64,000 nt of DNA from Treponema sp. (GTDB lineage Bacteria; Spirochaetota; Spirochaetia; Treponematales; Treponemataceae). The stretch's first letter is position 1. The number at the start of each line of letters is the position of its first letter. Where the stretch lies: the NCBI GenBank assembly GCA_016288205.1, contig JAEEYO010000036.1, positions 1-64,000 on the forward strand. Direction: 5' to 3'. Under the pieces are notes generated by a model. It was not told where the DNA came from, searched no databases, and saw nothing but the letters and a program-made list of their open reading frames with translations. This document shows positions 1 to 963 of this stretch, one piece after another. A program made the translations under genes and the position numbers.

Positions 1-311
1 AAGGCGACTTAGTTTGGCTTGACTTTGACCCGCAGACTGGACACGAACAAAAAGGTCGTCGTCCTGCAATTTGCATCTCTCAGAAAAAATACAATCAGAA
101 AATCGGTCTTGCTTTATTCTGTCCTATCACAAGCCATATAAAAGGTTATCCTTTTGAAATTGTATTAGACAAGCATTCAATAAATGGTTGTATTCTTAGC
201 GACCAAATAAAAAATCTTGATTGGAAACAAAGAAACTGCGATTTTATAGAAAAAGCAACAGAAGAGGAAATTAATTCTGTTGTAGATAATATAAAATTAC
301 TGATTGAATAG
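1..311 (+). CDS. MazF/PemK-family endoribonuclease toxin, C-terminal part (5' truncated by window edge; integron cassette)
   Basis: Frame-3 translation GDLVWLDFDPQTGHEQKGRRPAICISQKKYNQKIGLALFCPITSHIKGYPFEIVLDKHSINGCILSDQIKNLDW... stop at 309-311; matches the MazF/PemK signature (GDLVWLDFDPQxGHEQKGRRPA). Absent from the ORF track because the start is off-window. Confidence 0.85.
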   Translation, partial: GDLVWLDFDPQTGHEQKGRRPAICISQKKYNQKIGLALFCPITSHIKGYPFEIVLDKHSINGCILSDQIKNLDWKQRNCDFIEKATEEEINSVVDNIKLLIE

Positions 312-317
312 AATATC

Positions 318-381
318 ACATAACAAGAAGTTCAAAGCCGACACAGGCTCAAGGCCTGTGCGGTTTAACTCATTGTTATGC
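318..381 (+). other. attC-like integron recombination site 1 (64 bp)
   Basis: R''-like ACATAAC at 318-324 and R' GTTATGC at 375-381. The arms AGTTcAAAgCCGaCACAGGC / GCCTGTGCGGTTTAACT pair completely except for three extrahelical bases (c, g, a). Confidence 0.8.
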
Positions 382-433
382 TGACACCCGCACTGGGGTG
401 CCTGAATAAAGTAAAAAGGTATGGAGCAAAAAA

Positions 434-856
434 ATGCTAAGATTAGCGATTGTATTGATTATTATTTCTATCTCTTTATTATTTGTAGTTTTAGAAAGAA
501 TAAGAGAAAATAAAAATACAGAAGTAGAAGAAAAAAAGAATAAAGAGCTGACAGGAGCAGATAAAATAGGAATAATACATTTAATTTTTCTGTTCCTAGT
601 TTTAGTCACTGATTTAATTGATACTTTTGCCGGCAATTTTCTATACCGCGAACACAGACCTCTATTTGAAGTAGTATATAATTTTGAATTTGTCGGCCTG
701 TTTATTTTAATTCCAATCTTCTTTATAACTGTGTTAGTAAAACTAATTCGTTCATTAAAGAAAGAAAAGAAAGGCAGTGTAATTGCCTGTATATCTCTTA
801 TGCTTAACGTGGTTATGGGGCTGGTAAATGCAGGTACATATGCTTCTCACTTTTAA
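434..856 (+). CDS. hypothetical membrane protein (integron cassette gene)
   Basis: 140-aa ORF with several hydrophobic segments, lying between two attC-like sites. Confidence 0.65.
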   Translation: MLRLAIVLIIISISLLFVVLERIRENKNTEVEEKKNKELTGADKIGIIHLIFLFLVLVTDLIDTFAGNFLYREHRPLFEVVYNFEFVGLFILIPIFFITVLVKLIRSLKKEKKGSVIACISLMLNVVMGLVNAGTYASHF

Positions 857-899
857 AATATTCATCTGGAAACAATATTAAAATATTTAGTAAAATATA

Positions 900-963
900 G
901 CATAACAAAGGTTCGTAGCCGACAGACCTGTCAAGCCAGCTGCGGTACAACCAGTTGTTAGGC
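900..963 (+). other. attC-like integron recombination site 2 (64 bp)
   Basis: R'' GCATAAC at 900-906 and R' GTTAGGC at 957-963; arms GGTTcGTAgCCGaCAG.. / ..CTGCGGTACAACC with the same three extrahelical positions as site 1. Confidence 0.8.

Follow-up and report, generated by a model that had tools for sequence, protein, structure and literature searches.

Does the left end of this Treponema contig belong to an integron, and if so, is that integron still at work? The window, i. e. the whole stretch of 64,000 nucleotides that was analyzed, opens with small open reading frames (ORFs) separated by palindromic sites, which the original prediction had read as the tail of the cassette array of a chromosomal integron. 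In established integron biology, attC folds as a single-stranded bottom strand that the tyrosine integrase IntI cuts at G^TTA in the R' box, and circular cassettes are excised and then inserted at attI. Each cassette of the present array consists of an ORF and a 64-bp attC whose folded bottom strand is, or was, cut by IntI in R'.

The cassette array at the start of the window

Direct reading of the sequence confirmed two 64-bp sites with matching R''/R' boxes on the + strand. Site 1 spans 318–381 (ACATAAC...GTTATGC, R'' at 318–324 and R' at 375–381), while site 2 is located at 900–963 (GCATAAC...GTTAGGC, R'' at 900–906 and R' at 957–963). Single-strand DNA folds of both bottom strands display the attC architecture, composed of an R''/R' helix, an internal loop, an L''/L' helix and a terminal stem. 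The three extra bases that had been noticed in the same register of both sites likewise hold up and appear as three one-base bulges in each folded bottom strand. Site 1 folds with −18.4 kcal/mol (z −7.4) and site 2 more weakly with −11.2 kcal/mol (z −2.9). Taken on its own, the moderate fold of site 2 could be brought forward in favor of chance palindromes or of another repeat family instead of attC. Yet, a structural finder detected these two sites and no others in the 64-kb window, whereas the same finder gave five + strand matches in 40 dinucleotide-shuffled windows, i. e. a chance rate of about 0.13 sites per window. In addition, near-identical sites reside between co-directional ORFs on contigs C6, C7, C11 and C60 of the same genome, which also holds an intI relic and attI-like heads. 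Coincidental palindromes or another repeat family are thus hardly conceivable. A truncated third attC was found by direct reading at 1855–1869 on the + strand, in which R'' (ACCTAAC) is followed by AAAGCTTC and the remainder including R' is missing (complete remnant ACCTAACAAAGCTTC; the attC on C11, ACATAACAAAGCTTC, is an intact counterpart for comparison). This brings the count for the window to two attC sites and one remnant.

The ORFs between the two attC sites are co-directional, as the ORF list of the window bears out. MazF/PemK toxins are common integron cargo. The ORF of cassette 1 (3–311, + strand) encodes such a MazF/PemK-type endoribonuclease toxin of toxin-antitoxin systems (Pfam PF02452, E 2e-23; NCBIfam MazF, E 3e-34), of which 102 aa can be read, with the 5' end cut by the contig start. 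None of the other three ORFs, all on the + strand, has a family match: cassette 2 (434–856) encodes a hydrophobic protein of 140 aa, cassette 3 (1001–1852) a protein of 283 aa with a signal-peptide-like start, and the probable last cassette (1898–2167) a protein of 89 aa. Because the truncated third attC closes the cassette for the 283-aa protein, the array extends at least to about position 2167. Past the probable last cassette, chromosomal genes on the − strand follow from 2277. Base 1 of the window is also base 1 of contig C47, of whose 85.5 kb the window covers 64,000 nucleotides, and the upstream part of the array is missing since the 77-contig draft assembly broke at this very point.

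Taken together, several attC sites with R''/R' boxes, a foldable bottom strand and extrahelical bases separate small co-directional ORFs, as is characteristic of an integron cassette array. With at least two attC sites and no functional intI nearby, the locus also classifies as a CALIN, the full array structure being hidden by contig breaks. Bases 1–2167 are thus very probably the tail of the cassette array of a chromosomal integron with a decayed integrase, carried by a Treponema-type spirochaete.

Remains of the integron platform elsewhere in the genome

The draft genome was searched across its contigs with an attC pattern and for leaders. The additional attC copies that the original prediction called for are present, with six further intact sites (two each on C6 and C60, one each on C7 and C11) and degenerate copies on C6 and C5. 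Moreover, three heads qualify as putative attI sites of an integron array, as judged from sequence and position; each of them, on C7, C11 and C60, is followed by a cassette, and they have the core GGATATGGGGARATTTTGTTA in common. Their positions in this genome (G000) are C7:84587, C11:2918 and C60:2256. Three attI-like heads in a single genome suggest duplicated or dispersed platforms. The further attC sites on C6, C7, C11 and C60 and these heads support the assignment of the window's left end to the tail of a chromosomal integron array.

The proposal that the integrase lies left of the window, in contrast, found no support, since the window opens at a contig end and the only intI sequence is a relic on a different contig. 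The search for an IntI-type recombinase gene therefore succeeded in part: a relic exists, while an intact gene was not found. This sole integron integrase sequence of the genome is a frameshifted C-terminal fragment (C11:3074–3260), which comprises 47 C-terminal residues with 85% identity to relatives plus 14–20 residues in another frame, and is located inside contig C11 rather than at its edge. With an intact intI tyrosine recombinase absent from the assembly, the locus does not represent a complete, functional integron. Two tyrosine recombinases of 320–324 aa are encoded within 8 kb on C65 (1628–2446 and 8355–9158; L009); with about 30% identity to IntI, they are probably other tyrosine recombinases.

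Given the decay of the integrase gene, shuffling of the arrays by their own integrase has most likely ceased. A still active array would require an intact IntI in an assembly gap, on a plasmid or in other cells. Indeed, the 77-contig assembly is broken within arrays, Treponema saccharophilum harbors an array of the same type on a 424-kb replicon, and an intact intI could lie hidden in a gap between contigs or act in trans. However, the 3–10 kb read upstream of all three attI-like heads contain no intact intI but only the relic on C11, and no IntI over the family cut-off was found in the 99.3% complete assembly, which renders ongoing activity improbable.

Integrons of this kind are known in the family: an IntI match (E 1e-40 or better) was obtained for 77 of 196 sampled genomes, 61 of which exceed the curated cut-off. 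The position of intI in one relative (G079) agrees with that published for T. succinifaciens (PMC3607928). Earlier work described Treponema integrons, the orientation of their intI and the fact that T. phagedenis has lost intI (PMC3607928), and the array of the window is a further Treponema chromosomal integron of this known kind, with a decayed integrase. It shares the shape of attC and the co-directional cassettes with the chromosomal integrons of T. denticola, T. succinifaciens, T. vincentii and T. brennaborense, and its intI, here a relic, is likewise transcribed toward attI and the cassettes. It differs from them in that intI is reduced to a decayed fragment and in the presence of three attI-like heads in one genome. 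The integron remnant of T. phagedenis has likewise kept attC sites and cassettes despite the loss of the integrase, while the present genome still retains a recognizable intI fragment and attI-like sites (all comparisons with PMC3607928). Since the array adds a further Treponema integron whose integrase is dead, the integrase was lost more than once in this group.

A hairpin at the start of Treponema cassettes

Site 1 is followed by a further structure. At 382–401 on the + strand, 3 nt after R', the leader of cassette 2 contains an intact hairpin (T-G-A-CACCC gcactg GGGTG-C) with the A preceding the stem in an extrahelical position. The other leaders in the window are decayed: GGATGGCACACTGGGGAG (964–985, + strand) resembles the family, with no stable hairpin, and the leader of the fourth cassette, TGTGGCTCCCCGCATAGGAGAGG (1870–1892, + strand), is degenerate. 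For comparison, 345 attC sites with 302 distinct downstream leaders were collected from the Treponemataceae. A stem at exactly 3 nt after R' occurs in 82% of these 302 leaders, versus 16–21% at comparable offsets in the controls (45 nt further down or on the other side of attC) and about 7% for shuffled leaders in a smaller set; 18% of the leaders lack the hairpin. The rate amounts to 85% in g1, the genus of the window, 82% in g15, 89% in g3 and 59% in g21. This comparison shows that most cassettes of the Treponemataceae open with a predicted short hairpin exactly 3 nt after the R' box.

The hairpin has the form N-X-A plus stem, closed by X', with a stem of 3–8 bp and one extrahelical A. The 118 distinct hairpins with perfect pairing comprise 41 stem sequences of 4–8 bp, with ACT, GCACTG, TTC and TTAC as frequent loops, and base 3 of the leader is the extrahelical A in 115 of them. 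The pair flanking this A, i. e. position 2 and the first base past the stem, is of the Watson-Crick type in 107 of the 118 (G-C 92, C-G 14, T-A 1), with these bases having played no part in selecting the hairpins; 20,000 permutations averaged 80.7 such pairs and never exceeded 93. In a fixed-geometry subset of 28 sequences, for which the inner six pairs but not the outer pair were the selection criterion, 99.5% of the cells are paired and 51 cells show double changes versus 12.9 after shuffling, a covariation signal that is destroyed by sliding the partners.

Outside the family, the hairpin is present in one genome from a different family of this order (G372) and in part in a more remotely related spirochaete (L164). 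Leaders behind the attC sites of other phyla lack it, with the 9% at offset 3 corresponding to background (75 leaders at 80 loci from named records). It was not found after the repeats of the Vibrio array that was read, and the aac(6')-Il cassette of a class 1 integron also has no such leader. The string GCCCCTTAGGCGGGC in the Vibrio repeat was considered as a similar leader and rejected, as it was placed as the L' arm within attC and no hairpin follows the true R'. Class 1 and Vibrio attC sites of the literature likewise feature a folded bottom strand, R and L boxes and extrahelical bases, but of Vibrio and Treponema only the latter has a hairpin at a fixed offset after R'. The structured motif OTH-22-1 (PMC8632094) is an attC-like structured DNA element reported by others, which was described as an attC variant rather than as an additional hairpin past R'. 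Rfam contains no family for the leader hairpin, and no description was found in the open-access literature, which was the scope of the survey. T. saccharophilum provides a named example with the array on its plasmid pTS1. This integron-type array (L271, 364–376 kb of the 424-kb replicon) has RelB/YafQ, HipA and SinI-type restriction genes inside or beside it. The exact Treponema string of R' plus leader was also detected on two contigs filed as viral in IMG/VR (L269:1679–1705 and L270:12092–12118), which may be mis-filed integron DNA or phages that picked the string up.

The IntI proteins of Treponema (L033, L038, L050, L055, L056 and L060) carry an N-terminal extension of about 80–100 aa with a W..W motif in front of the SAM-like domain. 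Pfam gave a sub-threshold hint to HARP in two of eight sequences (E 0.024), and a profile of the extension had no match among solved structures. A similar extension is found in IntI of Elusimicrobia (L114, L121 and L165). A link between hairpin and extension was considered and abandoned: there is no clean correlation, as the extension is shared by Elusimicrobia, for which no convincing attC turned up, and a distant spirochaete (G345) combines an IntI of similar length with attC sites that have no hairpin.

Possible roles of the leader hairpin

Because spacing and shape are conserved while the stem sequence is not, the hairpin could be read as DNA along with attC when the bottom strand folds, and would then mark a boundary or act as an insulator on the R' side. 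We regard such a role as plausible, if somewhat short of probable. It is supported by the fixed 3-nt distance from R', by the preservation of shape over sequence and by the retention of the hairpin in 16 of the 21 cassettes that lack a credible ORF. Furthermore, bottom-strand pairing of the R boxes is higher with real than with shuffled leaders in 64 of 90 cases, albeit as a small effect. On the other hand, the hairpin lies just upstream of the ribosome-binding site, thus becoming part of the mRNA leader as well, and is somewhat commoner in cassettes with an ORF (141/155) than in those without. The departures from Watson-Crick pairing, 12 of the GU and 7 of the AC type, do not point to one strand.

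The hairpin might instead act in RNA, as a stem in the 5'-UTR immediately before the Shine-Dalgarno sequence, where it would shield ribosome binding from the adjacent attC stem-loop or protect the mRNA. In class 1 integrons, attC stem-loops hinder translation (reviewed in PMC8876359). The median distance from the stem to the start codon is 19 nt, and RBS-like motifs, where identified, lie about 6 nt past the stem. The slight excess of GU over AC departures and the higher frequency in ORF-containing cassettes would also fit. Yet, the exact distance from R' and the nearly invariant extrahelical A have no obvious reason at the RNA level, the hairpin persists in most of the ORF-less cassettes, and the accessibility of the start region is not clearly better than with shuffled leaders (52/89). 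A role in RNA appears possible, if somewhat less likely than one in DNA. Intrinsic terminators or attenuators between cassettes are quite unlikely. In g1, four consecutive T follow within 10 nt past the stem in 39% of cases as part of a T-rich tract, e. g. in L073 (CAGGCC gct GGCCTG C TTTTTT), but the combination of GC-rich hairpin and T-tract that makes up an intrinsic terminator occurs in only 8% of cases in g15 and in none (0%) in g3, and a constitutive terminator at this position, about 19 nt ahead of the start codon, would shut off the very gene it precedes. What little likelihood is left beside DNA, RNA and termination or attenuation falls to a hairpin inherited without function.

Following the reading as DNA one step further, attC and the leader hairpin might form a bipartite recombination signal, in which the attC hairpin is joined by a mini-hairpin that is read by structure, contains an extrahelical base and lies 3 nt beyond the cleaved R' box. 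Treponema IntI with its extra N-terminal domain would use this signal for the strand, the end or the efficiency of recombination. We put forward this proposal, including its use by IntI, only tentatively.

In any case, the leader hairpin is a recognizable, structurally conserved 5' signature of Treponema cassettes, which aids in calling cassettes and in tracing where they come from. A function in recombination would make it, next to attC, a second DNA element of integrons that works through its structure, in a system whose description has so far comprised only attC and attI.
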